NCBI GenBank assembly: GCA_002364615.1
Contig: DEYP01000011.1
Coordinates: forward strand, 62,001-126,000
Direction of reading: 5' to 3'
Origin: Arsukibacterium sp. UBA3155
Lineage (GTDB): Bacteria; Pseudomonadota; Gammaproteobacteria; Enterobacterales; Alteromonadaceae
Length of the DNA: 64,000 nucleotides
The notes under the pieces were generated by a model. That model saw only the letters and a list, made by a program, of their open reading frames with translations, was not told the origin of the DNA and did not search any database. The position numbers and the translations under genes were made by a program. Positions within the stretch are counted from its first letter, which is position 1. Each line of letters begins with the position of its first letter. Below are positions 39,381-57,688 of the stretch, piece by piece.

Positions 39381-41645
39381 ATGAAAAAAATGTTTTATCT
39401 GATATTGCCATTGTTTGCTCTGGCAGGATGTTTTGAAGGCGCAGACGACGAGCTACCTGAACCACCACCAGTGTTTACCGCGACCCAGACCTTTAATGTC
39501 AGCCTGACCGGCCATCAGCAGGTACCCAATGTTGTCACCGATGACATCGCGACTGCCACGGTGGAACTTGATGAAGATTTAAAGCAAATCCGGGCGTCAG
39601 TCGATTTGTCCGACATCGACAATGTTGAAGCCGCCCATATTCATGATGGCGATTTAGGATTTAACGGTGATGTTGCCTTTGCATTTACTGCTGACACCAG
39701 CGGTGTTTACCGCATTGCTCCGATCGATATTTCCGATGCCCTGATAGCCGACTTACAAAACGGCGAGTGGTATATTAATGTTCATACCACTTCATACCCG
39801 AACGGTAAAATTCGAGGCCAGATTGTCAACGATGAGACGGTAATCGTAACCTTTCCCTTGGCAGGCCAGCAAGAAGTACCGGCAGTTGATACCATTGCCA
39901 GTGGTTATGCTTATGCCGCAATAGATCAAACCGATTACCAACTTACGCTGACGGCAAGAACCATGGGAGTAGCTGATGCAACGATGGCACATATTCATAC
40001 CGGCCGGGTTGGCACCAATGGTGATGTACTAGTCGGTCTGGAGGCCGCAGAGGAAGATGGAGTTTGGGTATTACCTGCTGAGACCATGATTGATGAAGCG
40101 ACCTTTCAGGTGCTGGCTGGCGGAGGGCACTACGTTAATGTGCATACACCTGCCAACCCGGGAGGTGAGCTCAGAGGGCAAATAATTACTGATAACTTCG
40201 TGCTTACGACGTTTGCGTTATCTGGCAAACAGGAAGTACCCATGGTAGATACCCCGGCATCGGGTGACGGCTATGCGCTGATCAATACGGATGACTACAT
40301 GGTCGAGGTTGTCGCGGTCACCACCGGCGTTGATGATGCGACCATGGCCCATATTCATACCGGGCGCATCGGTAATAACGGCGATGTGTTGGTAGGCCTG
40401 GTGCAATCTGGTGACGATTTGGGCACCTGGATGACGCCTGAAGACACGCAGATTGACGAAGCCACCTTTGCGATACTGGCTTCTGGTGGCCATTACGTTA
40501 ATGTTCATACCCCCGAGAACCCAAGTGGCGAGCTACGCGGCCAGATTTTAACCGATAACTTTGTACTGAGTACTTATGATTTAAGTGGCGCCCAAGAAGT
40601 ACCCGCTGTTGCAACAATGGCATCAGGCGATGGCTATGCTCTGATTAATACCACTAACTTTGCGGTTGAATTAGTGGCACTGACAGAGGGGGTTGATGAT
40701 GCGACCATGGCACATATTCATACTGGCAGAGTGGGAATAAATGGCGATGTGCTCATTGCGCTTGAGCAGGATGTGACGACCCCTGGCAAATGGGTAACCC
40801 CAGACGGAACCCTGATTGACGCCGATATTTTTGCCGTGCTTGCCTCTGGTGGCCACTATGTCAATGTTCATACTCCTGCTTATCCCGGTGGTGAACTGCG
40901 TGGTCAGATCCTGACCGATAACTATATGCTGGCAACCTTTGCCCTTAGCGGAGCGCAGGAAGTACCGGCTGTCAACACTTCGGCATCCGGTACAGGCTAT
41001 GCATTGGTTAACAAGTCACAGCTGACATTGGAGCTCATGGTGCATACGCAGGGAGTGGACGATGCCACCATGGCACATATTCATACTGGTCGGGTGGGAG
41101 TAAACGGTGATGTGTTGGTTCCCCTTGTGCAAGTTGCAGGTGAAGCTGGCTCGTGGTTGCTGCCAACGGCAACCCCTATCACTGCAGACATTTTAAACGT
41201 GCTTATGTCAGGTGGACATTACGTCAATGTTCATACACCGGCCAACCCAAGCGGTGAGTTGCGGGGCCAGATTATCTCCAACGATAACTTTGCGCTGATT
41301 ACCTTCCCGTTATCCGGGGCGCAGGAAGTCCCGGCTGTTACCACAGCGGCCAGAGGAGACGGCTATGCCATGGTGAATTTGAGTGACTACAGCCTGGAAC
41401 TGCAGGTACTGACGTCAGGTGTGGAAGATGCCACTGCAGCACATATTCATACCGGCGTCGCAGGAGTAAACGGCCCGGTATTACTTGGCCTTGAACAAGA
41501 TGCCGGCAACGTTAACCGCTGGATGACGCCGGCTGATGCCGCATTAACCCAAAGCATTTTTGATGTGCTGGCCGCAGGTGGTCACTATGTTAACGTCCAT
41601 ACCCCAGAATTCCCCAATGGCGAAATACGAGGGCAAATTGAATAA
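39381..41645 (+). CDS. Lipoprotein with six tandem CHRD domains
   Basis: A 754-residue exported lipoprotein: MKKMFYLILPLFALAGC ends in a lipobox (LAGC), then an acidic linker. The rest is six CHRD domains of about 121 residues each, beginning near bases 39489, 39836, 40197, 40560, 40923 and 41289. Each has the core pattern xxHIHTG, NGDVL and GHYVNVHTP, and ends in GELRGQI. CHRD domains are named after animal chordin; in bacteria their role is unknown. The first copy is the most divergent, the middle ones the most alike, which suggests internal duplication. Conserved His pairs (HIH, VH) could bind metal, but this is a guess. A terminator follows. Confidence 0.9.
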   Translation: MKKMFYLILPLFALAGCFEGADDELPEPPPVFTATQTFNVSLTGHQQVPNVVTDDIATATVELDEDLKQIRASVDLSDIDNVEAAHIHDGDLGFNGDVAFAFTADTSGVYRIAPIDISDALIADLQNGEWYINVHTTSYPNGKIRGQIVNDETVIVTFPLAGQQEVPAVDTIASGYAYAAIDQTDYQLTLTARTMGVADATMAHIHTGRVGTNGDVLVGLEAAEEDGVWVLPAETMIDEATFQVLAGGGHYVNVHTPANPGGELRGQIITDNFVLTTFALSGKQEVPMVDTPASGDGYALINTDDYMVEVVAVTTGVDDATMAHIHTGRIGNNGDVLVGLVQSGDDLGTWMTPEDTQIDEATFAILASGGHYVNVHTPENPSGELRGQILTDNFVLSTYDLSGAQEVPAVATMASGDGYALINTTNFAVELVALTEGVDDATMAHIHTGRVGINGDVLIALEQDVTTPGKWVTPDGTLIDADIFAVLASGGHYVNVHTPAYPGGELRGQILTDNYMLATFALSGAQEVPAVNTSASGTGYALVNKSQLTLELMVHTQGVDDATMAHIHTGRVGVNGDVLVPLVQVAGEAGSWLLPTATPITADILNVLMSGGHYVNVHTPANPSGELRGQIISNDNFALITFPLSGAQEVPAVTTAARGDGYAMVNLSDYSLELQVLTSGVEDATAAHIHTGVAGVNGPVLLGLEQDAGNVNRWMTPADAALTQSIFDVLAAGGHYVNVHTPEFPNGEIRGQIE
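39489..41640 (+). repeat. Six tandem CHRD-coding repeats, about 363 bp each
   Basis: Unit starts from the second onward are spaced 361, 363, 363 and 366 bases. The protein motifs are strongly conserved while the DNA has drifted at third positions, so the array is old and under selection for protein sequence. Confidence 0.85.
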
Positions 41646-44179: not shown

Positions 44180-46279
44180 ATGTCAGCAGATTTATCCTTA
44201 TACAGAAACATTGGTATCTTCGCCCACGTTGATGCCGGCAAAACCACGACTACCGAACGTATCCTTAAACTGACCGGTAAAATTCATAAGTTAGGCGAAG
44301 TTCACGAAGGTGAATCAACCACCGACTTCATGGAGCAGGAAGCTGAGCGCGGTATAACTATCCAGTCTGCAGCCGTAAGCTGTTTCTGGAAAGGTTACCG
44401 TTTCAACGTTATCGATACCCCGGGACACGTTGACTTTACCGTAGAAGTTTACCGTTCATTAAAAGTACTGGATGGCGGTATCGGCGTATTCTGTGGCTCT
44501 GGCGGTGTTGAACCACAATCAGAAACCAACTGGCGTTATGCTAACGATGCTGAAGTATCACGTCTGATTTTCGTTAACAAACTTGACCGTATCGGTGCTG
44601 ACTTTATCCGTGTTACCGAGCAGGTTAAAAAAGTGCTGGGCGCTAACCCGCTTATCATGACCTTGCCTATCGGCCGTGAAGATACTTTTTCAGGCGTTGT
44701 TGACCTGTTAACTCAGAAAGCCTACGTCTGGGATGAAACCGGCCAGCCAGAAAACTACGAAGTGACTGACGTACCAGCAGATATGGCTGATGACGTTGAA
44801 ATGTACCGTACGCAGTTAATCGAAACCGCATTAGAGCAAGATGACGACCTGTTAATGGCCTATATGGATGGCGAAGAGCCGTCTATCGAAGACATTCAGC
44901 GTTGTATCCGTAAAGGTTGTCGTGACCTGGCATTCTTCCCAACATACTGTGGTTCTGCCTTTAAAAACAAAGGTATGCAATTATTGCTGGATGCTGTTGT
45001 TGATTATCTGCCAAGCCCAACTGAAGTTATTCCGCAGCCACTGACTGACGAAGAAGGTAACGAGAACGGCCAGCACGCTATCGTATCTGCTGATGAGCCA
45101 TTCCGCGCCTTAGCGTTTAAAATCATGGATGACCGTTTCGGCGCCCTGACCTTTATCCGTATTTACTCTGGTGTACTGAACAAGGGTGATACCATCCTTA
45201 ACTCATTTACCGGTAAAACGGAGCGTATCGGCCGTATGGTTGAGATGTACGCTAACGACCGTATCGACCTTACTTCTGCTCAGGCGGGTGACATCATTGC
45301 CCTGGTAGGTATGAAGAACAACACTCAGACCGGCCACACCCTGTGTGATCCTAAGCACCCTTGTACTCTTGAGCCAATGGTATTCCCAGAGCCAGTAATC
45401 TCTATCTCTGTAACGCCAAAAGATAAAGGTTCAGTTGAGAAGATGGGTATCGCTATCGGTAAGATGGTTGCTGAAGATCCAACCTTCCGCGTTGAAACTG
45501 ATGTTGATTCAGGTGAAACCATCCTTAAAGGTATGGGTGAATTACACTTAGATATCAAAGTCGACATTCTGAAGCGTACATACGGCGTAGAGTTAGTAGT
45601 AGGCCAGCCACAGGTTGCTTACCGTGAAACCATTACCCGTGAAGTTGAAGACAGCTACACCCACAAAAAACAATCTGGTGGTTCAGGTCAGTTCGGTAAA
45701 ATTGATTACCGTATCCGTCCAGGCGAGCAGAACTCTGGCTTTAGCTTTAAGTCAACAGTAGTTGGCGGTAGCGTACCAAAAGAGTTTATGCCTGCTATCG
45801 AGAAAGGCTTTGCGTCAATGATGTCAACCGGTACCCTGGCTGGCTTCCCGGTATTAGACGTAGAAGTTGAAGTATTTGACGGTGGTTTCCACGCCGTTGA
45901 CTCATCAGCAATCGCGTTCGAAATTGCTGCTAAAGGCGCTTTCCGTCAGTCAATTCCTAAAGCTGGCGCCCAGTTGCTTGAGCCAATCATGAAAGTTGAC
46001 GTATTTACCCCGGAAGATCATGTTGGTGATGTTATCGGTGACTTAAACCGTCGTCGCGGCATGATTTCTGGCCAGGAAGCCGGTGTTACTGGTGTAAGGA
46101 TCAAAGCTGACGTACCATTGTCAGAAATGTTCGGTTACATTAGCTCACTGCGCACCATGACTTCTGGTCGCGGCCAGTTCTCTATGGAGTTCTCGCACTA
46201 CTCACCGTGCCCGAGCAACGTAGCTGAAACCGTTATTGCCAAAGAAAAAGAAAAGAAAGCCGCTGCTGCTAAAAACTAA
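44180..46279 (+). CDS. fusA: Elongation factor G, second copy (fusA2/fusB type)
   Basis: Translational GTPase. The 699-residue protein has all five EF-G domains: G1 [13 protein letters not shown] (about residue 15), RGITIQSAA (switch I), DTPGH (about 82), NKLD (about 137), and domains II to V. It is not next to rpsL-rpsG-tuf, so it is probably the second EF-G found in Shewanella, Vibrio and relatives rather than the main one; the sequence [17 protein letters not shown] differs from classical EF-G (HDGAATMDWMEQEQERG in E. coli). Unlike its neighbours, it uses almost only CGT for Arg and shows the bias of strongly expressed genes. A strong terminator follows. Confidence 0.93.
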
Positions 46280-46295
46280 GTAGGAAGCGTGCTTT

Positions 46296-46330
46296 AAAAA
46301 GCCCCGCCGGTGAACCGGCGGGGCTTTTTT
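46296..46330 (+). terminator. Terminator of the EF-G gene
   Basis: GCCCCGCCGG (46301-46310), loop TGAA and CCGGCGGGGC (46315-46324), flanked by five A and six T. Very stable, consistent with a highly expressed gene. Confidence 0.96.
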
Positions 46331-46453
46331 ATTTGTATTAGCAAAAAGACTTCAGTCTCAGATTGGCCCTATGGCATAAGCCTTGCTACAGTTAACCTCT
46401 TAACTAATTGAATAATGCGCAATATTATCACTGTGCCTGACAAGGAGTTGCCT

Positions 46454-47911
46454 ATGAGCTCGACCAGTTTTACCCAGGGGGGCTATCCGCTAACAGACGG
46501 CTGTTTTGATGAACTTGTTAGTGCCAATGGCAGTATTCGACGCCCCGCCGTTGCTATTGCCCGTTTTATTGATAAACATGGCCCCAGCGAATTAATCAGA
46601 CGACAATCATTAATAAATCAGACTATTAGCGACATGGGTGTGTGTTTTACTCTGTATGCCGATGGTGACAATATAGACCGGGCCTGGCCACTGGATGTGA
46701 TGCCACGCACTATTCCCAGCAGCGAATGGCAGCTGACCAGCGATGGCCTGAAACAGCGTTTGCATGCCCTTAATCTGTTTATCGATGACTTATATAATGA
46801 CCAGAAAATTCTGAAAGACGGCATTGTACCCAGCGAACTGGTGCTACAGTCCCGCAATTACCTGAGGGCATGCCAGGGTGTGTCGCCCCGTTATAAGGCA
46901 TGGGCCAATATATGTGGCACCGATTTAGTGCGCGATGGCAGCGGTAAGTTTCTGGTATTGGAGGATAATTTACGGGTGCCTTCTGGCGTATCCTATATGC
47001 TGGAAAACCGTACCGTAATGAAACGAGTATTTCCGGAGCTATTTGCTGACTCAACTATTTTTCCGGTAGATGATTATCCGCATCAGTTATGGAAAATGCT
47101 GGCATCTTTATCGCCGCGTGAGGGTGATGTGCCCTGCATCGTGTTGCTCACGCCGGGAATTTACAACTCTGCTTATTTTGAACATACCTTTCTGGCCCAG
47201 CAAATGGGGATTGAACTTGCAGAAAACCACGATATGTATGTCGAGGATGACGTGGTATGGTTAAAAACCCTGCGCGGTAAACGACGGGTAGATGTGATAT
47301 ATCGGCGGGTCGACGATGTATTTATTGATCCACAAGCCTTCCGGCCTGACTCGGTACTCGGTATTCCAGGTCTTATCAAAGCCTGGGCTAAAGGCAATGT
47401 TTCTATTGCCAATGCCCCGGGCTCCGGTGTCGCAGACGACAAAGTGGTGTACGCCTATGTGCCGGCAATTATTGATTATTACCTGGGAGAACAGCCCCTT
47501 ATCGATAACGTTGAAACTTTCCTGTGTCTCGATCCAAAACAAAAAAGTTATGTGCTGGCGAACCTTGACAAACTGGTGGTAAAACCGGCTAACGAGTCTG
47601 GCGGCTACGGCATATTAATCGGTCCCCGCTCTACCCTGGCCGAGCAACAAGAAATGGCTGCCGCTATTGAAGCGAACCCCCGCAATTTTATTGCTCAGCC
47701 CACGTTAAATCTGTCAACCGCGCCCACTTTGTGTGGTGAGGTGTTAGAGCCACGCCATCTTGACTTGCGCCCCTTTATTTTACAGGGGGAAGAACTGTAC
47801 TGCACCACCGGCGGTTTAAGCCGGGTTGCACTAACCAAAGGCTCCCTTGTAGTCAATTCCTCCCAGGGTGGCGGCAGTAAAGACACCTGGATCATCAATG
47901 ATGAGGTATAA
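46454..47911 (+). CDS. Circularly permuted type 2 ATP-grasp protein (DUF407)
   Basis: Predicted to join a carboxylate and an amine using ATP, as other ATP-grasp ligases do. The 485-residue protein carries VLEDNLRVPSGVSYMLENR, YFEHTFLAQQMG, a glycine-rich ATP loop K377-PANESGGYG and RHLDLRPF with Arg439, all expected for an active permuted ATP-grasp. ATG 46454 has a perfect AAGGAG six bases upstream and replaces an upstream start 39 bases earlier. It is the first gene of an operon with an alpha-E protein (gap 3 bases), a second ATP-grasp/alpha-E fusion and a transglutaminase. Comparative genomics by Iyer, Aravind and colleagues predicted that such clusters make a peptide or peptide tag; the product is unknown. 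Confidence 0.9.
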   Translation: MSSTSFTQGGYPLTDGCFDELVSANGSIRRPAVAIARFIDKHGPSELIRRQSLINQTISDMGVCFTLYADGDNIDRAWPLDVMPRTIPSSEWQLTSDGLKQRLHALNLFIDDLYNDQKILKDGIVPSELVLQSRNYLRACQGVSPRYKAWANICGTDLVRDGSGKFLVLEDNLRVPSGVSYMLENRTVMKRVFPELFADSTIFPVDDYPHQLWKMLASLSPREGDVPCIVLLTPGIYNSAYFEHTFLAQQMGIELAENHDMYVEDDVVWLKTLRGKRRVDVIYRRVDDVFIDPQAFRPDSVLGIPGLIKAWAKGNVSIANAPGSGVADDKVVYAYVPAIIDYYLGEQPLIDNVETFLCLDPKQKSYVLANLDKLVVKPANESGGYGILIGPRSTLAEQQEMAAAIEANPRNFIAQPTLNLSTAPTLCGEVLEPRHLDLRPFILQGEELYCTTGGLSRVALTKGSLVVNSSQGGGSKDTWIINDEV

Positions 47912-47914
47912 CCC

Positions 47915-48883
47915 ATGCTATTAAAATCAGTTGAACATATTTTCTGGCTTGGCCGGTATCTGGAGCGGTTAGATAACACGGCCCGCCTGGTCAACGCTAC
48001 CAGCCATTTGCTGATCGACAGCCATAAAGATACGAAATTCAGCTGGCCGGTATTACTGGATGTCATGGGACTGAACAGCACCAAAGCACTGGATAGTTAC
48101 CAACTACCCGCCGACGCAGAGCCAGAGCAATCGAGTATTGAAAATGCAGTGATGTCGCATTTAATCACTAACAAAGACAGTACGGTGTCTATTCGGTATA
48201 CCTGCAGCCAGTTGAAATTTAACGCCCGCACCATCCGCCAGCTTATTCCACGGGATATGTGGGAAGAGCTGAATAAACTGGACTTATTTTTAAAGCAACA
48301 CTGTCAGCAGCTGCAGGGCAGACAGCACCGTTACAACCTGATGACTGAAGTCAGCCGGCGCTGCCAGATGGTGGTTGGCGTATTAGATGGAGTGATGTTA
48401 CGCGGTGATGCATTTGACCTGTTTAACAGTGGCCGGCTACTAGAACGCGCAGATATGACCACCCGTATTATGGATGTGCTGGTGTTACAACAACTGCAGC
48501 CTACCCAGATAAAACGACCAAAATTTCGCTGGACTTCTATTCTCAATGCCCTGGGTGGCATAGAGTCTTATCATTACTATGTTGCAGAGCAAAGTGGCGA
48601 TGTCGATGCCATCGATTACCTGTTAACCTATGCTGATTTCCCGCGCTCTATTGCGTATTGCTTAAACCGGGTGGCGGCCTCTGCCAGAACCCTGCCACAC
48701 AGCAACAGTATTTTGGAGCAGGTACATGCGTTACAGGCACTGCTAAAAGCGCAGCCGCTAACTGATTTATCAACAGAACAACTGCATCAGCTGATTGATA
48801 ACATCCAAACCGGTATTATCAATTTGCACCAGGTGATAGTAGAGCCAAAGAGCAGCCAGCAAAGCCAGCAGCTGTCAGCCTGA
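47915..48883 (+). CDS. Alpha-E domain protein (DUF403)
   Basis: A 322-residue all-helical protein starting MLLKSVEHIFWLGRYLERLD, the family signature with a Trp-x-x-Arg-Tyr-x-Glu-Arg core. Alpha-E proteins are found almost only with permuted ATP-grasp ligases and are thought to be partner subunits or carry a second catalytic step. RGDAFDLFNSGRLLERADMTTRI repeats the same kind of motif in the middle of the protein. The start lies three bases after the ATP-grasp stop. Confidence 0.9.
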   Translation: MLLKSVEHIFWLGRYLERLDNTARLVNATSHLLIDSHKDTKFSWPVLLDVMGLNSTKALDSYQLPADAEPEQSSIENAVMSHLITNKDSTVSIRYTCSQLKFNARTIRQLIPRDMWEELNKLDLFLKQHCQQLQGRQHRYNLMTEVSRRCQMVVGVLDGVMLRGDAFDLFNSGRLLERADMTTRIMDVLVLQQLQPTQIKRPKFRWTSILNALGGIESYHYYVAEQSGDVDAIDYLLTYADFPRSIAYCLNRVAASARTLPHSNSILEQVHALQALLKAQPLTDLSTEQLHQLIDNIQTGIINLHQVIVEPKSSQQSQQLSA

Positions 48884-48945
48884 CAGGGTTACTCAGGCCA
48901 ACAAGCTTTATCCCGATGGCAACAGACGTTTATTACAGGAGTCTT

Positions 48946-51405
48946 ATGACCTTAAACCCAGCGCAGCCGGCATGCAACGAACAGCAACACTGGCAGGCGC
49001 TACCCCAGTGGCAAACAATGCAACATTGGTGGCAGCAACAAAACGATTTCGCGCTTAACCAGTTGCATAACGAATTGCAGCACCAGCTACGGGAAAATGG
49101 TGCTGCGGTCGATCCCTGGCATACCTCAGCACGGCAGCTGGATTTGCAACCCTGGCTGATTGCCAGTGAAGAGTGGCAAACCCTGGAAAATGGCATTAGC
49201 CAGCGTCATAAGTTGCTTAACGCCGTACTTGCTGATTTGTATGGACCGCAAAAATTACTACAACACGACATTATTCCTGCCGATGTCATTTACCTTAATG
49301 ACCATTTTCTGCTGCCCTGTGTCGATCTGGTCGTGGATCAGCCCTGGTTATCTCTGTTTGCCTGTGATGTCGGCCGTAACAGCGATGGCAGCTTTTGTGT
49401 TTACAATGACGTCAGCCGGGCACCGGCAGGCCTAGGCCATGTGCTGGAACACCGGCTGGCCTTTAACCACACTACCACTGAGTTGAACACTCAGATTAAA
49501 AAAACCCAGTTGGCCGGTTTTTTTCGTCAGTTGCAGCAATTGTTGCAACAACCGGCCCAGAGTAGCGATCAGCAACAGCTGGCCGCCCTGCTTACCCACC
49601 AGCGGCGGGATACCGCTTACTTTGAACATGCTTTCTTAGCTAATTATCTGGATATTGCCCTGGTGCACGGTGCAGACTTAATGTTTAAAAGTGGCAAACT
49701 GTGGCTGAAAACATTAAGTGGCCTGCAGCCTATCCACGGCGTGCTGCGCTATCTGGACGACAACAGCTGCGATCCGCTGGAACTGGCGCCGGCCAGCAGT
49801 GGTTGTGCCGGCATGCTGCAAGGTATCCGGCAAGGTCAGCTTTTTTGCGCCAACCCGCCAGGCAGTGCAGTGCTTGAATCCGGAGCGTTATTGCCTTTTA
49901 TGGCACAAGCTTGTCAGTTTCTGCTGGATGAACCATTGCAACTGGCCAGTGTGAATGCCCTATGGTGTGGCGATAGCGAAGCGTTAAACCGATTACAACA
50001 ACAACCCGAGCACTTTTGTATTTCGCATATTGGCAGTGACCGGCAATTTGTGTTGCACCAGTTAAATGATCAAGAGCTGGCGGCATGCTGGCAGCAGGTT
50101 AAACAACAGCCTCAGGCTTATATTGCCAGGCAGATACTACCGTTAAGCCAGCTACCCTGCCGCACGGTCAGTGGCAGCTCAGAGCTGCAAGCCGGCGCCT
50201 TACGCCTGTTTAGTCTGCTGGACCACCAGCATAACATTTCGGTGTTGCCGGGCGCACTGGGCCGGACGGCTCATGATCCGTTAATCTTGCAAACCGAGCT
50301 GTTACAAGGGTTTAATCAACAATTTAATGCCAAAGATGTCTGGGTGCTGGCAGAAAAAGCCCATAGCAGCAGCTTATTGCACAGTGCCAGTAATACCATT
50401 ACGTTATCGCGCCAGGCGGGCTTATTATCCAGCAGAGTGGCTGATCATTTATTCTGGCTTGGTCGCTATAACGAGCGACTGAATCTGATTTGCCGGGCGT
50501 TACGTGCGGCATTACCGCTGCTAAGTGGTGATGATCCGGCGCAGGGCCAACACGATGCCAAAGCCTTACTGCAGTTTTGTCTGCAGGCTAATGGGGCGGA
50601 TCCCAACCCACAAGCCAGCGTTGAGTCATTACTGGAACCGTTATTTTCTGGCAGCAATCCGCAAGGGCTGGTCGCGGTGCTGAAAAACCTGTTATTTAAT
50701 GCCCAGTCTGTCCGGGAATACTTCGGTGAGGATACCTGGTATGTGCTAGACCGACTGCAAAGTGCCGTTTACAGCTGGCCAGTTCAGCCTGACTGGCAAC
50801 AACCGGCATTGTTACTGCGCACCCTCGATGAAATTATTCTTTTGCAAACAGCAATTTATGGCATTAACAGCGAAACCATGACCCGCACCGACAGTTTACG
50901 CTTTATGGATTTAGGCCAGCACCTGGAACGGGCACTGCAGACCTGCGGTTTACTGCATTCGGTGTTCTGTCAAACCACTGCCTCGGCAAGTTTACTTGAA
51001 GCGCTGCTGCGCATGGCAGATACCCTGTTAACGTACCGCCGGCGTTATCATAGTGCGCTGCACCCCGTACCAATTATCGATTTATTGTTGCTCGATGACA
51101 GCACACCGCGTTCCGTGGGCTATCAATGCTCGGTGTTATTACATCAGATTAAAAAGTTACCGCCGCAGCAATTGTCTGCCGGTAACGGTCTGCTACAGGG
51201 CAATGAAAGTCAGTTAGCCAGTGAGCTGTTAGCCTTGCTGCAACAAACCGATCCGCAACAGCTGTTTGATCAAATGCAGCGACCTGCCCTGGAGCTGAGT
51301 CACCTGCTGTTACAATTGCAACTTCGGCTTCGTCAGTTATCAGACTCGATTACCTTATCGTATTTCAGCCATATCGATACTCACAACCAATGGCAGCGTT
51401 TCTGA
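48946..51405 (+). CDS. Fused permuted ATP-grasp (degenerate) / alpha-E protein
   Basis: An 819-residue fusion. Residues about 30-485 align with the separate ATP-grasp protein of this operon (YNDVSRAPAGLGHVLEHR, TAYFEHAFLANYLD, WLKTLSGLQPI), and residues about 490-815 with the alpha-E protein (VADHLFWLGRYNERLN). The ATP loop is not preserved: where the partner has KPANESGGYG, this protein has CISHIGSDRQFV (about 357-368), and the DLRPF Arg motif reads ALRLFSLL. The ligase half is therefore probably inactive or altered. ATG 48946 has AGGAG four bases upstream and is preferred to an ATG 30 bases earlier. It lies 62 bases after the alpha-E gene and one base before the transglutaminase gene. Confidence 0.87.
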   Translation: MTLNPAQPACNEQQHWQALPQWQTMQHWWQQQNDFALNQLHNELQHQLRENGAAVDPWHTSARQLDLQPWLIASEEWQTLENGISQRHKLLNAVLADLYGPQKLLQHDIIPADVIYLNDHFLLPCVDLVVDQPWLSLFACDVGRNSDGSFCVYNDVSRAPAGLGHVLEHRLAFNHTTTELNTQIKKTQLAGFFRQLQQLLQQPAQSSDQQQLAALLTHQRRDTAYFEHAFLANYLDIALVHGADLMFKSGKLWLKTLSGLQPIHGVLRYLDDNSCDPLELAPASSGCAGMLQGIRQGQLFCANPPGSAVLESGALLPFMAQACQFLLDEPLQLASVNALWCGDSEALNRLQQQPEHFCISHIGSDRQFVLHQLNDQELAACWQQVKQQPQAYIARQILPLSQLPCRTVSGSSELQAGALRLFSLLDHQHNISVLPGALGRTAHDPLILQTELLQGFNQQFNAKDVWVLAEKAHSSSLLHSASNTITLSRQAGLLSSRVADHLFWLGRYNERLNLICRALRAALPLLSGDDPAQGQHDAKALLQFCLQANGADPNPQASVESLLEPLFSGSNPQGLVAVLKNLLFNAQSVREYFGEDTWYVLDRLQSAVYSWPVQPDWQQPALLLRTLDEIILLQTAIYGINSETMTRTDSLRFMDLGQHLERALQTCGLLHSVFCQTTASASLLEALLRMADTLLTYRRRYHSALHPVPIIDLLLLDDSTPRSVGYQCSVLLHQIKKLPPQQLSAGNGLLQGNESQLASELLALLQQTDPQQLFDQMQRPALELSHLLLQLQLRLRQLSDSITLSYFSHIDTHNQWQRF

Positions 51406-51406
51406 T

Positions 51407-52285
51407 ATGAAATATAACCTGCGTCATCTGACTCAATACAGCTATCCACAGCCGGTAGCCAACAGTTATAACGTGGCATGCCTGACACCCCGTCAGTTAG
51501 CCTATCAACACGTTGAACAAACTCAGGTTGATGTTGAACCTTACCCCTCTGAAGTGCAGCAGAGAACCGATTATTTTGGTAACACTCAGCATTTCATTCA
51601 CTTGCAAAGCCCCCATTTGCAGCTTGCGGTAACCGCAAACAGTATTGTCAGGGTGCTGCCACGGGACAATATATTGAAAATTCAGGATGGTGCCAGCCAG
51701 GAGCAGTTACAGCAGCATCTGGCCAGCACTCGCGATAGTATGACACTGCAGGCAAAACTATGCAGCAATGCCAGCCAGCTTATCCCGCTATTGCCAGAAG
51801 CCAGGGCAATAATAACCCCCATGCTTAGCGACAGTCAGAATGTGTTGCAGCTGGCCCAGAGCATCAATCAGTTAATTTTCAAAGAATTTCAGTATGATCC
51901 CGAGTTCAGTACCGTAGTTACGCCGCTGAGCGAAGTGATAAAGCACAAGCGCGGGGTATGCCAGGACTTTGCGCAGCTGGCAATAGCGTGCATGCGCAGT
52001 GTCGGTATTCCAGCGCGTTATGTTAGTGGCTATCTGGAAACCCGTCCCCCGGAGGGACAACCCCGCTTAGTCGGCGCTGATGCTTCCCATGCCTGGTTTG
52101 CGGTATTTGATCCGGTGCTTGGCTGGGTAGATTTTGATCCGACCAATAATATACTGGCCGACGAGCAACACCTTACCGTCGCCTTTGGCCGGGATTATGC
52201 CGATGTGGTGCCATTAAAGGGCTTGCTGCAAGGCAGTGGTGAGCACAGCCTGACCGTTGCGGTTGACGTTGCTCCGATGGAGTAA
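51407..52285 (+). CDS. Transglutaminase-like protein
   Basis: A 292-residue protein with an N-terminal beta domain typical of bacterial transglutaminase-like proteins (LRHLTQYSYPQPV) and a papain-like core: Cys in RGVCQDFAQLAIACMRSVG (about residue 182), His in ASHAWFAVF (about 225) and Asp in DFDPTNN (about 245). It has no signal peptide, so it acts in the cytoplasm, probably as a peptidase or amide-transferring enzyme. It is the last gene of the ATP-grasp/alpha-E operon, starting one base after the fusion gene. In such clusters it is proposed to cut or transfer the peptide made by the ligases. Confidence 0.9.
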   Translation: MKYNLRHLTQYSYPQPVANSYNVACLTPRQLAYQHVEQTQVDVEPYPSEVQQRTDYFGNTQHFIHLQSPHLQLAVTANSIVRVLPRDNILKIQDGASQEQLQQHLASTRDSMTLQAKLCSNASQLIPLLPEARAIITPMLSDSQNVLQLAQSINQLIFKEFQYDPEFSTVVTPLSEVIKHKRGVCQDFAQLAIACMRSVGIPARYVSGYLETRPPEGQPRLVGADASHAWFAVFDPVLGWVDFDPTNNILADEQHLTVAFGRDYADVVPLKGLLQGSGEHSLTVAVDVAPME

Positions 52286-52305
52286 AAGAATAACAACAAC
52301 TGTGT

Positions 52306-53127
52306 TTAACGTTCTTGATGATTTGCAGCGACACTGTTTAGCCAGCGGTAGCCCAACCAGGCAGCGGCTAACAGATAAGGCAAGCCACCCGGTACCCACA
52401 TCAATAGTCCCGCCAGTTGCTGATCTGCCAATTGATGCGTCGGATAGTACAGCAGGCTGTCGGCAAAGGTCAGTATGGCACCGAGAAAACCGGTCTGCAT
52501 CAACGTAAACAGCAACGCCAGCAGCGCCCAGCTACGATTACGCTCGTTACAATTGAGGATTGCCCACCACAGCATCGCAGCACTAACGATAAAGCACATA
52601 TGCTCCACCAGATGCCACCAGGGATGCTCCAGTGCTAATACATAAAAACGAGGGGTATGCCAGAACCAGACCATAGCAGCATGCAGGTATGCCAAACTTA
52701 ACGGATAGCCGGCTATTTTCAGCAAGAGCTGCCACAGCGCTCTGCCCAAGCTGCCGGTAGCGGCAGCAAACTGCGCTAACGGCCGGCTAAGCGCCCACAT
52801 TGGCGGAATAACCACCATAAACAACATATGCTGCACCATATGCGCACTGGCACTGGTTTCTGCCCAATCGTCCAGCGGACCAATAACAGCAAAAGCGCAC
52901 AGCAACACACTGCTGTGAAACAATAGCGCCTGCGACAACAATGGCGAGCGCATTAGCGAGCCGACACTATACAACAGCCAGAACACGCTCAGCAAAACCA
53001 CAGCCAGCAGCGCAGCCCAAAAGGTGGCCCCTGCACTTTGAAGCGGATTATGCGCCTGCAGCGGCCAGCTGACAAAGCAGAGCAACAGCGCCGCTATTGT
53101 CGAACACCGTAAGACATTCAGGCGCAT
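52306..53127 (-). CDS. ctaG: Cytochrome c oxidase assembly factor CtaG (caa3 type)
   Basis: Membrane protein of the CtaG_caa3 family, required for assembly of caa3-type oxidases in Bacillus and found next to similar oxidases elsewhere. The 273-residue protein has a signal-like first helix and about seven membrane helices; HMVQHMLFMVVIPPMWALSRP and WHLVEHMCFIVSAAMLWW are family blocks with conserved His and Met that could bind copper. It starts ten bases inside the upstream small gene and closes the oxidase operon. Confidence 0.87.
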   Translation of the reverse strand: MRLNVLRCSTIAALLLCFVSWPLQAHNPLQSAGATFWAALLAVVLLSVFWLLYSVGSLMRSPLLSQALLFHSSVLLCAFAVIGPLDDWAETSASAHMVQHMLFMVVIPPMWALSRPLAQFAAATGSLGRALWQLLLKIAGYPLSLAYLHAAMVWFWHTPRFYVLALEHPWWHLVEHMCFIVSAAMLWWAILNCNERNRSWALLALLFTLMQTGFLGAILTFADSLLYYPTHQLADQQLAGLLMWVPGGLPYLLAAAWLGYRWLNSVAANHQER

Positions 53128-53489
53128 GGCGCCAATACCAGCACCGGCAAACCGCCGGCGACGGTCGCCACGGCTGCGGCCAGATACAATACGGTACTCA
53201 CGTAACCAATAAAGCGCTGCGTACTGCTGCTGTCATGAGCCTGATGCTGCGCGGTGCAATATCGTCCACTGCGCCAGGCAAGCACTAACAGCAGCAATAT
53301 TACCATTATACTAAACGCCGCTAAGCCAATATTAAGCCAGCTGAAAGCGCTTTGCGGCCTTGGCGGCGGTGCCAGCTGGCACACTACCGACAATCCGGCA
53401 TACATAGCAATAAACCAGATGCTCCAGATAATCAGGCCAATGACAAGTTGTGCCGGGTGGCCCGGGCCAAACCAGCGAGCGGTTGTCAT
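53118..53489 (-). CDS. Small membrane protein of the oxidase operon
   Basis: I do not recognise this 123-residue protein. It has three membrane helices (about residues 14-34, 52-72 and 97-118). Its ATG at 53489 overlaps the stop of the oxidase I/III gene as ATGA, with GGGAG seven bases upstream, and its end overlaps ctaG by ten bases. That tight coupling suggests a small subunit or assembly helper of the oxidase. A longer reading frame reaching 53567 would begin inside the oxidase gene and is not supported. Confidence 0.7.
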   Translation of the reverse strand: MTTARWFGPGHPAQLVIGLIIWSIWFIAMYAGLSVVCQLAPPPRPQSAFSWLNIGLAAFSIMVILLLLVLAWRSGRYCTAQHQAHDSSSTQRFIGYVSTVLYLAAAVATVAGGLPVLVLAPCA

Positions 53490-56008
53490 AGCGCAGCTCC
53501 CCAGCCTAGTGGCAACAAAAAGAACAATGCAACACTCAGCCAGTACACTGCCAGATAATAAAACCATAGCGGTTTAATGACCTGTGGCTCGTATGGCAAA
53601 CAGGCACTAACATAGCCGCGGCCGACTCTCAGTGCCTGTAATCCGGTTAAGATTACCGTTAACGTAGCATGGCCAAGCAAGTACAGCAGAATAACCATCA
53701 GCACAGCATCATGGGCGCTACTGGTGTAATTCAGTGGCACATCAATAAACAGCAGTAGTAAAATCAGCAGGTGCAACAAACCCAAAGCGGCGCTTAACCA
53801 CAACTTTTGCTGTAACCGGTTATCATCTTTTTCTGCCAGGCCCTGGCATAGGTTATGAAACAACCAACCGCCGATGCAGGCCGGTAAGCCACAAGCTACC
53901 AGCCACCAGACAGATAACGGTCCCGCAGCCGGTGCTGACCACTGCGGGGCGGCAGTCCATAAATAAAACCAGCCAAATAGCAGCGACATATATAAAGCAC
54001 CATTAGCCAGCAGGGTAACAATCATGCCCCAACGGCCCGGACCATCTAGAGTTTGCACTTCCAGCGGTAACGTATTGGAGTCTGGTGCCGATAGCTTTGC
54101 CGCTTTCGGATGTCCGCCGTTCTCCCATCCCCAGCCGAGCAGCACAATAACGGCTATACCAAACGCCACTAAGGCCAATTCATACCAGCGGCACAATAAA
54201 CTGACACAGACTAAGGCCAAAATCAGCGCAGTGGCTAAAGGCCACCAGGAGTTACCCGGCAACTGCAATATTTTTTGTGGCTGAGCACTGATAGCAGAGG
54301 TGCCATAAGTTTCCCGTTTGCCCCGACTGGTATCCGCCAGGCCTTCTTTAGCATCAGCAATACGCCCGGCAAGTTTTGGGTTTTGCCATAGCGGCTCGCC
54401 GCTATTCACTTTGGGTAAGCTGACAAAGTTATACTGAGCCGGTGGCATTGCTAACGCCCATTCCAGCGTATCGGCCTGCCAGGGGTTGGCCTCAGCGCGC
54501 TTGCCAAACCAAAAGTGCAGTAATAAATCCAGCAGCACCAGTGCCACACCGATGGCCATAATAAAACCGCCAATGGATGACAGCAGATTTAAACCATCCC
54601 AGCCCAGGCCGGCCTCATAAGTGTAAACCCGCCGCGGCATACCCAGTAAGCCGGTAAGGTGCATCAGTAAAAAGGTCGTATTAAAACCAGTGAAGGTTAG
54701 CCAGAAACCCCAGCGGCCAATGAGTGCTGATGGCATACGGCCCGAAACTAAAGGCAACCAATAATATAACCCCGCGATAAGAGGAAAGAACATGCCACCG
54801 ACCAGTACATAATGCATATGCGCTACCACAAAGTGCGTATCGTGTACCTGCCAGTTAAACGGCACTAACGCCAGCATTACCCCGGTCAGGCCGCCGCAGA
54901 CAAATATCATCAGAAAGCCGCTTATCCACAACATGGGCAGCCGGAATACCACCTTGCCCCGCCATAAGGTTGCCAGCCAGGCAAAGACCTGAATTGCGGT
55001 AGGTATGGCCACCAGCATGCTGGCGATAGAGAAGAAAGCCTGTGCCAGCTGCGGAATGCCCACAGTAAACATATGGTGCACCCATAGGCCAAAACTGATA
55101 AAACCGGTCAGGATCACCGCAATAACTATCCAGCGATAACCAACTATTGGCCGGCCACTGAAAACTGGGATTAAAGTTGAGACAATGCCTGCGGCCGGCA
55201 GAAAGATAATGTAAACCTCAGGATGACCGAATAACCAGAATAAGTGCTGCCACAGTAAGGGATCACCACCAGCAGCTACCGTGAAAAACGGCATCCCGGC
55301 AGCCCGCTCAAGTTCCAGTAGAATACTGGCCAGAATAAGTGGCGGAAAGCCAAATACGATCATTAACGCCATCACCAGAATATACCAGCAAAATAGTGGC
55401 ATCCGGCTCAACGTCATGCCGCGGGCCCGACTGCATAAAATGGAGACAGTTAGTTCAATACCAGCCGACATAGCTGAAATCTCAACAAAAGTAATACCCA
55501 GTAACCAGAAATCTGAACCAGGTCCGGGCGCAAATTCGCTGCTGCTAAGCGGCGTATACATAAACCAGCCTGAAGCCGGTGCTATCCCCAGCACCAAACT
55601 GGACAGTATAATAATGCCGCCAAATAAATAGCAGTAATAACCCAGCGCACTCAGCCTTGGAAACACGAGATCGCGGGCACCAATCATTTTGGGGATCAGA
55701 TAAATGGCCAGGCCTTCCAGTACTGGAATGGCAAACAAAAACATCATGACGGTGCCATGCATGCTAAACAGCTGGCTGTAGGTCTCAGCAGAAACCAGTT
55801 GTTGCTCTGGCAAGGCAAGCTGACTGCGCAGCAGCATGGCCAGCACACCACCTACCAGAAAAAAGAACAGCCCGGTAACCATAAAACGCAAACCAATTGT
55901 GCCATGATTTACTGCTGCTAAACTGCCCCATCCCGGCAAGTTTTTCCAGATATGGTGTAACTGACGGCCAATTTCCTGCGCCGATGTACCTGATTTGTTA
56001 TCAGTCAT
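53486..56008 (-). CDS. ctaD: Cytochrome c oxidase, fused subunits I and III
   Basis: Catalytic heme-copper oxidase. The 840-residue protein joins subunit I (about residues 1-560, twelve helices) to a subunit III-like part (about 610-840, LYMSLLFGWFYLWTAAPQW). Subunit I has the active-site GHPEVYI with the Cu-B His and cross-linked Tyr, WVHHMFTVG with the His pair, and DTHFVVAHMHYVL with heme ligands. The GARD Asp of the D proton channel and the Glu in HPEV are kept. In the K channel, the usual Lys of PTGIK is Gln340 (PTAIQVFAW), a change I recall in other fused oxidases. It overlaps coxB by eight bases. The operon is coxB, this gene, the small gene and ctaG. Confidence 0.93.
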   Translation of the reverse strand: MTDNKSGTSAQEIGRQLHHIWKNLPGWGSLAAVNHGTIGLRFMVTGLFFFLVGGVLAMLLRSQLALPEQQLVSAETYSQLFSMHGTVMMFLFAIPVLEGLAIYLIPKMIGARDLVFPRLSALGYYCYLFGGIIILSSLVLGIAPASGWFMYTPLSSSEFAPGPGSDFWLLGITFVEISAMSAGIELTVSILCSRARGMTLSRMPLFCWYILVMALMIVFGFPPLILASILLELERAAGMPFFTVAAGGDPLLWQHLFWLFGHPEVYIIFLPAAGIVSTLIPVFSGRPIVGYRWIVIAVILTGFISFGLWVHHMFTVGIPQLAQAFFSIASMLVAIPTAIQVFAWLATLWRGKVVFRLPMLWISGFLMIFVCGGLTGVMLALVPFNWQVHDTHFVVAHMHYVLVGGMFFPLIAGLYYWLPLVSGRMPSALIGRWGFWLTFTGFNTTFLLMHLTGLLGMPRRVYTYEAGLGWDGLNLLSSIGGFIMAIGVALVLLDLLLHFWFGKRAEANPWQADTLEWALAMPPAQYNFVSLPKVNSGEPLWQNPKLAGRIADAKEGLADTSRGKRETYGTSAISAQPQKILQLPGNSWWPLATALILALVCVSLLCRWYELALVAFGIAVIVLLGWGWENGGHPKAAKLSAPDSNTLPLEVQTLDGPGRWGMIVTLLANGALYMSLLFGWFYLWTAAPQWSAPAAGPLSVWWLVACGLPACIGGWLFHNLCQGLAEKDDNRLQQKLWLSAALGLLHLLILLLLFIDVPLNYTSSAHDAVLMVILLYLLGHATLTVILTGLQALRVGRGYVSACLPYEPQVIKPLWFYYLAVYWLSVALFFLLPLGWGAAL

Positions 56009-56702
56009 CGAGGGTTAACTCCTGTATGGATTCTTGCTTCAGCCACAGGGCAAAGTCTGACTGACTATGGGCGATAACAGTAAATTGCATATGGGCATGG
56101 CCGACACCACAATATTCGGCGCACTGGCCCCGAAATATTCCTGGCTCCGAGGCTTCAATTCGCAGAACATTAGTGCGCCCCGGCAGTAAATCCAGTTTAA
56201 CGGCCAACCTTGGTACCCAAAATGAGTGAATAACATCGGCACTGGTTAGCGACAAATGTACCGGCGTATCAACCGGTATATGTAATACATCACTCATCTG
56301 CAATGCGTGATCAGGGTAAGTAACCTGCCAATACCACTGATGTCCGGTCACGTTAATTCGCAAGGCATTTTCATCTGACAATGGCATCATCCGTTGCCCC
56401 ACCGGCAAACCGGCAACCAGCAAAACGATGATGGTAACGGTAGGTAGTACAATACCGCCCCAGATAATCCAGCTGCTGGTTGCACCGACTGGCTGTTTAT
56501 CTGTTTTGCGTTTTATCGCATAATGCCAAAGCGCAATCAGCGCCAGCAACACGACTGACGCGACAAAAAACATTCCCCACCAAAGCAGTGCAACTTCCGC
56601 AGCGGCGGGTCCCTTAGGGTCGAGACTTGAAAATGGCCCACCACAACCGCTCAGGCTCAGTAGCAGGATAGCTGGCCAGAACACTGCTACACTTTGCCGC
56701 AA
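56001..56702 (-). CDS. coxB: Cytochrome c oxidase subunit II
   Basis: Carries the Cu-A centre that accepts electrons from cytochrome c. With a TTG start at 56702 it is 233 residues: a lipoprotein signal (FWPAILLLSLSGC), two membrane helices and a cupredoxin domain with HSFWVPRL and CAEYCGVGHAHM, containing all Cu-A ligands. There is no fused cytochrome c domain. The frame is open much farther upstream to 57353, but that part lies antisense to the DUF2231 gene and has no family features. No start has a convincing ribosome binding site; an ATG at 56810 with AAGG five bases before it is the main alternative and would overlap the DUF2231 gene by 54 bases. Confidence 0.85.
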   Translation of the reverse strand: MRQSVAVFWPAILLLSLSGCGGPFSSLDPKGPAAAEVALLWWGMFFVASVVLLALIALWHYAIKRKTDKQPVGATSSWIIWGGIVLPTVTIIVLLVAGLPVGQRMMPLSDENALRINVTGHQWYWQVTYPDHALQMSDVLHIPVDTPVHLSLTSADVIHSFWVPRLAVKLDLLPGRTNVLRIEASEPGIFRGQCAEYCGVGHAHMQFTVIAHSQSDFALWLKQESIQELTLDD

Positions 56703-56756
56703 GGGTGTTAGCCGTTTTGTGGTTAGCGCTGCTGTTATTTGTTTTGGAGCTAAAAT

Positions 56757-57236
56757 ATGTCGATGGACCCCATTAACAGTCAAATTAAAATTTTTGGCCA
56801 TCCTATTCATCCCGGCCTTATTCATTTCCCGGTGGCGGCGCTGCTTGGTCTTATTGCCTCTGATCTGGCGTTTGTATTCAGTGCCGATCCATTCTGGGCC
56901 CGCGCCAGTTTGTGGCTGGCTGGCGTAGGCGCTGTCGGAGGCTGGCTGGCCAGTTGCGCCGGTATGATGGACTTGCTGATTGTTACTCAGATCCGACGGC
57001 TGATCAGCGGCTGGTGCCATGCCATACTGGCAGTGATGTTGTTGTCGCTGGCAACTTTTAACTGGATTTTGCGCCTGCCAGATGCAGCGGCGCACATTAT
57101 GCCAAAAGGGCTGTATTTGTCGTTGCTCAGTGGCTTGTTGATTATTGTCACCGGTTATCTTGGTGGCCGGCTGGTCTACGAATATGCGGTTGGGGTCAAT
57201 GTTGACGACATGCTTGAGGAAGACGCCAACAACTAA
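56757..57236 (+). CDS. DUF2231 membrane protein
   Basis: A 159-residue inner-membrane protein with four helices. The start MSMDPINSQIKIFGHPIHPG, followed by LIHFPVAALLG, is the DUF2231 signature (HPIHPxxIHFP) with conserved His. Related proteins sit next to oxidases and may bind heme or quinone; function is unknown. GGAG is seven bases upstream. It diverges from coxB and converges with the small membrane protein gene at 57254. Confidence 0.88.
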   Translation: MSMDPINSQIKIFGHPIHPGLIHFPVAALLGLIASDLAFVFSADPFWARASLWLAGVGAVGGWLASCAGMMDLLIVTQIRRLISGWCHAILAVMLLSLATFNWILRLPDAAAHIMPKGLYLSLLSGLLIIVTGYLGGRLVYEYAVGVNVDDMLEEDANN

Positions 57237-57253
57237 CACTAGTAACAGGATGA

Positions 57254-57688
57254 TTATAAAAACCATGGCAACTGCTCTTGCTGAGGTTTTAGCAACACCA
57301 GCACTACAATACTGATAATCAACAACAGCACCAGCAGCAATAAAGCAGTACATTTGCCGCTGATACTGCTACTTTCCGGCCGTTTACGATAAAGAATAAG
57401 TAAACCGGCGGTAACATGACAGGCTACCAGCGCGGTTACCAGCGTCAGTTTTAGCAGTAACCAGTTGTCGAATCGTTGCTGTACTACAAATATTAACGTA
57501 CCAGATACGATACTGAATAAGCCAGCAGGACTGGCCAGCCGGGTAAACCAGATCCGTTCCAGTGAATCTCCGTTGCCAGCCACTTGCGGCCAGTTCGGTG
57601 CCTTGCGCGCCAGCAATATTAATAGAATACACAGCGCCGCGGTCCAGATCACCAGACCGGCGATATGTAAAAACAACAACCACACCAT
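57254..57688 (-). CDS. CopD-like small membrane protein
   Basis: A 144-residue protein with four membrane helices (about residues 3-25, 50-70, 76-98 and 110-130). FLHIAGLVIWTAALCILL with the early His resembles CopD/DUF2269-like proteins that bind copper or heme, and HVTAGLL carries a second membrane His. Assignment is by layout and moderate. It lies beside the oxidase genes, which supports a link to copper or heme supply. Confidence 0.6.
   Translation of the reverse strand: MVWLLFLHIAGLVIWTAALCILLILLARKAPNWPQVAGNGDSLERIWFTRLASPAGLFSIVSGTLIFVVQQRFDNWLLLKLTLVTALVACHVTAGLLILYRKRPESSSISGKCTALLLLVLLLIISIVVLVLLKPQQEQLPWFL

Follow-up and report, generated by a model that had tools for sequence, protein, structure and literature searches.

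Operons that unite ATP-grasp, alpha-E and transglutaminase genes have been described before. In papers citing Iyer et al. (2009; Mol BioSyst 5:1636), so far as their accessible parts go, the same three families occur together and are predicted to act in peptide synthesis or modification. The Anbu operons of Pseudomonas aeruginosa, Yersinia bercovieri and P. putida (PP_2685-2688) also share ATP-grasp, alpha-E and transglutaminase genes according to partial accounts, and Burkholderia cenocepacia carries the same ATP-grasp/alpha-E/transglutaminase-like set under sigma-54 and NtrC (I35_5080-83; available part of PMC5491218). Here we analyse a four-gene operon of this type on the + strand (46454-52285) of a 64,000-nucleotide stretch (the window) of Arsukibacterium sp. 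UBA3155 (contig DEYP01000011.1, positions 62,001 to 126,000). We lean towards reading it as a sigma-54-driven amide-ligase operon in which a single live ligase works with a pseudo-ligase partner and a cysteine amidase/transferase, probably serving a response to nitrogen limitation.

While 41 of the 52 fused-type loci placed in our tree (see below) carry a DUF2126-type gene, the window lineage lacks one. Compared with the Anbu operons, the window genome gave no Anbu match and contains a predicted pseudo-ligase fusion instead. The Burkholderia cluster includes a 'large protein containing transglutaminase-like domain', probably of the DUF2126 type, and a fused ATP-grasp/alpha-E gene is not listed in the available part of PMC5491218. 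Earlier publications already cover the operon type, how it is linked to Anbu, and control by nitrogen in relatives. In the literature searched (Iyer et al. 2009 being outside this comparison) we did not find in print a lineage without DUF2126 and Anbu, its conserved sigma-54 site, or the decay of the fused copy in both its domains. The features of the locus are:

46454..47911, + strand: gene 1, circularly permuted type 2 ATP-grasp (485 amino acids; Pfam, motif residues, match to structure 3n6x)
47915..48883, + strand: gene 2, stand-alone alpha-E (322 amino acids, all-helical; Pfam PF04168, structure model)
48916..51405, + strand: gene 3, ATP-grasp/alpha-E fusion, predicted pseudo-ligase (Pfam, lost motifs, start context, purifying selection)
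51407..52285, + strand: gene 4, transglutaminase-like cysteine enzyme (292 amino acids; Pfam, invariant Cys/His/Asp)
46372..46387, + strand: sigma-54 -24/-12 element TGGCATAAGCCTTGCT (full match to TGGCAYRNNNNTTGCW, conserved in relatives)
46442..46447, + strand: ribosome binding site of gene 1, AAGGAG (from the sequence; AAGGA kept in four relatives)
46296..46329, + strand: rho-independent terminator-like stem (15-pair stem and T tail, 3' of an elongation factor G-like gene)

The open reading frames (ORFs) of the window and Pfam matches above the curated cut-offs (gene 1, CP_ATPgrasp_2, 532 bits; gene 2, Alpha-E, 218 bits; gene 3, CP_ATPgrasp_2, 333 bits, and Alpha-E, 204 bits; gene 4, Bact_transglu_N and Transglut_core, 80 bits each) bear out the coordinates and order of the four-gene set proposed in an earlier note on this DNA, and its predicted operon layout, collinear on the + strand with gaps of 3, 32 (62 from a later gene 3 start) and 1 bp, also stood. 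Genes of PF14403/PF04174, PF04168 and PF08379/PF01841 are adjacent on one strand, which places the locus in the described operon type. Genome-wide (3.89 Mb, 99.79% complete; E 0.001), CP_ATPgrasp_2 was detected twice, Alpha-E twice and Bact_transglu_N once, all inside the operon.

The element TGGCATAAGCCTTGCT ends 66 bp before the gene 1 start codon and fits perfectly the pattern TGGCAYRNNNNTTGCW, which we take to be the sigma-54 -24/-12 consensus. It is the single perfect match in the window and one of three in the genome (both strands), the reversed pattern having no genome match. Among 100 shuffles of the window, 17 contained at least one perfect match (mean 0.23), and the chance expectation for 175 bp of one strand is about 7e-5 from the genome density or about 3e-4 from the shuffle mean. 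Aligned with Rheinheimera EpRS3, two congeners and an Alkalimonas metagenome-assembled genome (MAG), the region keeps the -24 GG, the -12 GC, AAGGA and the start while much else is variable; the Alkalimonas element has one mismatch to the consensus. In a survey of 111 loci (omitting L044, L057, L058 and L074), we compared 139 operon-leading genes with 430 other genes of these loci that have a gap upstream. A site with no more than one mismatch precedes 52 of the former and 11 of the latter, and a perfect site 16 and 1, the reversed pattern giving 0 of 139 and 2 of 430. The corresponding Fisher test (2e-25) counts near-duplicate loci separately and its p value is therefore too small, the ratio being what matters. 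The site was most frequent in loci resembling the present one, i.e. with the fusion but without a DUF2126-type or Anbu gene (8 of 9), followed by loci with a DUF2126-type gene and the fusion (20/39), others (10/22) and Anbu loci (10/41). By its upstream element the operon fits the sigma-54 regulon, and from the promoter match and its conservation we predict that it is sigma-54-driven.

Control by nitrogen is known from relatives. In the available part of PMC5491218, an ntrC mutant of B. cenocepacia H111 shows 8.2-, 9.4-, 9.4- and 6.0-fold drops for I35_5080-83, which encode DUF404/407 (ATP-grasp), DUF403 (alpha-E), transglutaminase-like and large transglutaminase-like proteins, and the paper lists the cluster with the common sigma-54/NtrC targets. 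For P. putida, the accessible text of PMC8050072 reports that PP_2688 (ATP-grasp) and PP_2685 are up on nitrate versus ammonium and that a PP_2688 promoter reporter is induced 3.7-fold by nitrogen depletion, and PP_2686-2688 rise 11- to 15-fold in the wild type under nitrogen limitation (PMC7801951, Table 2). This nitrogen-linked expression of an Anbu operon resembles the control that we infer for the window operon. A regulon survey lists COG3484, a proteasome-type protease, among sigma-54 targets (PMC12316311, seen in part), and ATP-grasp/alpha-E/transglutaminase domains are linked with urea domains in marine metagenomes (PMC3597751, likewise in part). RpoN and NtrC genes were each present in all five lineage genomes tested. 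The sigma-54/NtrC control of the related Burkholderia cluster makes a role in nitrogen limitation likely, and by analogy the window operon is probably switched on under nitrogen shortage.

Several results weigh against sigma-54 and nitrogen control. At up to one mismatch, a site is lacking from 87 of the 139 operon-leading genes, from all 12 Anbu-bearing loci within the family and from the fusion-bearing XY-R5. A search for an NtrC box gave nothing within two mismatches at 46000-46400, although a degenerate or distant site is possible; the best score upstream of the window operon is 8 of 12, and isolated 10 of 12 sites occur in only 2 of 18 relatives. An upstream binding site does not, then, place the operon in the NtrC regulon, and for that reason we speak of inferred nitrogen control in this genome. 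In P. putida, the promoter of PP_2685 (Anbu) is described as nitrogen-agnostic, with no reporter induction (available part of PMC8050072), PP_2685 changes 1.12-fold in the wild type, and an rpoN mutant still induces PP_2686-2688 by 14- to 20-fold (both PMC7801951, Table 2), which disfavours a strict sigma-54 requirement there. The missing box also fits a real sigma-54 element served by an activator other than NtrC, e.g. one for a specific amine or peptide, in which case the operon would be catabolic rather than a nitrogen-stress system. Such activators exist in the genome, which has 57 matches to the NtrC model (E 0.001; some are receiver domains only, and one among the matches listed lies above the cut-off); this alternative is nonetheless somewhat unlikely, given that the related Burkholderia and Pseudomonas operons respond to nitrogen in the partial accounts cited above.

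Under the nitrogen-limitation reading that we prefer, the chemistry would start with gene 1. We aligned 109 stand-alone and 52 fused ATP-grasp proteins (omitting L059, which is the window copy, L044, from the same genome as L082, L074, and stand-alone ORFs outside 441-619 amino acids, i.e. L057, L058 and L153; L119, a long stand-alone ATP-grasp ORF, was dropped from 53 fused rows to give 52). Gene 1 retains D157, E170, N172, K377, the glycine loop (G383, G384 and G386), R439 and KDTW, all present in 109/109 stand-alone proteins, and so has the complete set that we assume to form the Mg2+/ATP site, in which E170 and N172 presumably bind Mg2+, as in ATP-grasp enzymes generally. Among solved structures, the closest relative of gene 1 is 3n6x (E 2.1e-145, sequence match), which is annotated as a putative glutathionylspermidine synthase, and through this match gene 1 is predicted kin to the glutathionylspermidine synthetases. 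A homologous Yersinia ATP-grasp releases phosphate from ATP (available part of PMC6376114). Gene 1 is predicted to be a catalytically active ATP-grasp ligase, and the idea of a ligase system in the earlier note is supported.

The gene 2 model has a mean predicted local distance difference test score (pLDDT) of 90.3; the model alignments contained 63 of 71 alpha-E and 31 of 36 fused relatives, each with the window protein. In gene 4, C185, H228 and D244, which we take to be the catalytic triad, are invariant in 25/25 aligned proteins (24 of 30 transglutaminase relatives and the window protein). By our proposal, gene 4 would act as a cysteine enzyme, either an amidase or a transferase.

No characterised product of the operon type was found in the literature reached, in agreement with the earlier note. 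The note's 'peptide or peptide tag' stays an option, and the fold relatives of the ligase make an amide between an amine and a small carboxylate no less plausible. The claim that no precursor-peptide gene is visible held between the genes, where gaps of 3, 32 (or 62) and 1 bp leave no space for an extra gene; the search did not extend to ORFs shorter than 80 amino acids around the operon. These points bear on protein or peptide tagging, in which gene 1 would build or attach a peptide on proteins and gene 4 would trim or cross-link it. For the related Anbu operon, tagging has been put forward in print as a hypothesis (PMC6376114 and PMC5666114, both in part), and gene 4 has the transglutaminase fold. 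We consider it unlikely for this locus, where no tag gene fits between the four genes (small ORFs elsewhere being outside the search), Anbu has no match in the genome and the fold relatives of the ligase are enzymes of small peptides and polyamines, substrates that we take from the entry names.

Gene 3 aligns with gene 1 over 454 residues, of which 108 are identical, and the earlier note had spoken of duplicated modules. Common descent is supported; equal active copies are not, since the fused copy lacks most of the Mg/ATP site. At the positions of E170 and N172, found in every stand-alone protein, fused copies have E in 0/52 and N in 4/52, and G383 is kept in 9/52, G384 in 6/52, G386 in 0/52 and K377 in 21/52. 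The window protein has N and V at the positions of E170 and N172 and no KP..GGYG loop, and does not have the Mg2+/ATP site. The alpha-E half is likewise altered. Among 102 stand-alone alpha-E proteins (101 of 114 ORFs, kept at 300-345 amino acids, plus the window), D35, R105 and R184 are conserved in 100% (to two decimals) and D180 and D187 are near-invariant; none of these is kept in fused copies, 96-98% of which retain the R18 and E177-R178 positions. Gene 3 is under purifying selection in relatives: the ratio of nonsynonymous to synonymous substitution rates (dN/dS) for genes 1-4 is 0.042, 0.025, 0.091 and 0.057 between two congeners and 0.029, 0.019, 0.048 and 0.045 in a closer pair, and for gene 3 in two pairs with the window 0.11 and 0.16, with synonymous divergence (dS) nearly saturated. 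The gene 3 model (mean pLDDT 86.2) has a permuted ATP-grasp fold, and Foldseek matched it first to 3n6x (7e-26), then to eukaryotic glutathione synthetases, Escherichia coli GspSA, trypanothione synthetase and YgiC/YjfC.

By these comparisons the fused copy is a duplicate by descent and not by active site, and an ordinary ATP-dependent ligase activity is very improbable for gene 3; the loss of most of the Mg/ATP site argues for a non-catalytic partner rather than an equal duplicate. Weighing against this, fused copies retain D157 and R439 (52/52), KDxW (51/52) and, in 21 cases, K377, so another chemistry in gene 3 is possible. It is decidedly unlikely that gene 3 works as a second ligase, or as an enzyme of another sort with a rebuilt site, so that two reactions follow each other: D157, E243, R284, R439 and KDxW in 51-52 of 52 fused proteins, the K377 cases and a Q at position 174 in 49/53 fused rows (R in the window protein) speak for it, and the near-complete loss of E170, N172 and the glycine loop and the missing invariant residues of the alpha-E half speak against it.

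GspSA is the glutathionylspermidine synthetase/amidase and carries a papain-like-fold cysteine amidase. It shares the permuted ATP-grasp fold with the gene 3 model at 10-12% identity among the rows listed; the window operon differs in that its genes are separate and include an alpha-E partner and a pseudo-copy, and the likeness is one of sequence and fold kinship. In the model that we favour, gene 1 would be the only working ATP-grasp, converting a carboxylate to an acyl phosphate that is then joined to an amine, as modelled on glutathione and glutathionylspermidine synthetases. Gene 2 would partner gene 1, and gene 3, as fused descendant of the same pair, would scaffold or gate the live ligase without catalysis, a role maintained by selection. 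Gene 4 may hydrolyse or transfer the amide product, following a synthetase/amidase logic as in GspSA. This combination of one ligase, alpha-E, pseudo-ligase and amidase/transferase is suggested by the gene 1 residues, the 3n6x annotation, the phosphate release in Yersinia and the Cys/His/Asp of gene 4. A point against it is that proteins of the Yersinia Anbu operon showed no specific binding to an Anbu bait in the available part of PMC6376114. The genes, the promoter match and its conservation, the motif loss in gene 3, the invariant gene 4 residues, the fold kinship and the lack of DUF2126 and Anbu matches were computed directly; a heteromeric complex, the product type and the direction of gene 4 would follow, like nitrogen control here, from reasoning on them.

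The emptied ATP or substrate pocket of the pseudo-ligase might even serve to sense a nitrogen metabolite and so to gate the live ATP-grasp/alpha-E pair; after loss of DUF2126, the lineage would then run the shortest working form, with four proteins. We regard this as speculative and rather doubtful. Were it true, the four-protein system would be the place to find the operon's product. A four-gene lineage with a sigma-54 element that hints at timing makes the product question testable, and the pseudo-ligase result replaces a model of two ligation modules by one with a single ligase and a non-catalytic partner, which bears on reconstitution.

The earlier note had missed the sigma-54 element, the NtrC/sigma-54 control in Burkholderia and the relation to Anbu and DUF2126. 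Operon content was compared across genomes, as it had proposed. Among the best 80 of at least 595 matching stretches, the operon type is widespread in many Proteobacteria, with gene 1 identities of 90% (Alkalimonas MAG) and 86% (Rheinheimera sp. EpRS3). Gene 1 was detected in 34 of 118 genomes drawn from the family. A first kind has the gene order of the window (6/34); a second (12/34) combines a large transglutaminase/DUF2126 gene, the fusion, a transglutaminase, ATP-grasp and alpha-E; in a third (14/34), a zinc-ribbon metallopeptidase-like gene adjoins ATP-grasp and alpha-E, with Anbu alongside as well in 12 of the 14; and loci were truncated in 2/34. Genome-wide, DUF2126 was found in 12/12 genomes of the second kind, 1/6 of the first (XY-R5) and 2/14 of the third, and Anbu in 13/14 of the third and 0/18 of the first and second. 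In the window genome, DUF2126 (PF09899) gave no match and the Anbu query found nothing, which sets the locus outside the DUF2126 subtype and the Anbu operons; PF00227 had one match, a 183-amino-acid frame that is HslV-like by length. Seven window-lineage genomes (including Rheinheimera EpRS3 and Marinobacter BGYM27) gave no match to DUF2126 or Anbu, the partners usual for this operon type. XY-R5 and Neptuniibacter have similar-looking loci but encode DUF2126 elsewhere in the genome. In a quick, midpoint-rooted tree of the 52 fused proteins, the seven lineage members form one clade (Shimodaira-Hasegawa-like approximate likelihood ratio test 100) on a long stem of 1.1 changes per site, beside DUF2126-bearing rows. 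The simplest reading is that DUF2126 was lost and that gene 3 then changed fast.

Some loci of the comparison deserve separate mention. The zinc-ribbon/Peptidase_Mx gene (L061 9172-10269, with similar ORFs in L060-L073; PF10005 and PF15887 in the one tested) occurs in 14/14 third-kind loci and in 3/12 DUF2126-type loci of the family, and may be a further partner. The congener G097 gave no match to gene 1. In G085 (L057 8568-9617 and 9684-10840), the first 134 residues of gene 1 are missing and the operon looks as if broken by an insertion, the ORF pair directly upstream of the shortened gene being, we assume, transposase-like. G084 likewise has just a shortened gene 1 and gene 2. A lone 110-amino-acid fragment similar to gene 1 residues 353-455 (L074 6381-6713) was found in G046, which has a full operon elsewhere. 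L096, on a contig titled Klebsiella pneumoniae MAG, possibly a misnamed metagenome bin, has large transglutaminase-like and Anbu-like genes beside an ATP-grasp/alpha-E pair.

The gene 1 start at 46454 is preferred over the mechanical ORF start at 46415 because AAGGAG precedes it and four relatives keep both AAGGA and ATGAG; for gene 3, 48946 is likelier than 48916 because CAGGAG sits upstream. Terminator-like hits in 46000-52600 on both strands (10, against a shuffle mean of 7.1, sd 2.4) are near chance. The strongest, the stem at 46296-46329, lies upstream of the operon and separates it from a 699-amino-acid gene directly upstream (44180-46279), presumably elongation factor G-like; a similar stem is present in three of the four aligned relatives (Rheinheimera EpRS3 and two congeners) and not in the Alkalimonas MAG. 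The next gene downstream (52306-53127) is convergent. Beyond it, at 53486-57353, long overlapping - strand ORFs, which we take to be a cytochrome oxidase-like cluster, have mechanical starts that reach into their neighbours and need revision. At 39381-41645 lies a 754-amino-acid lipoprotein-like ORF with about six similar repeats bearing HIH/VNVHTP motifs, repeats that in our estimation resemble CHRD domains.

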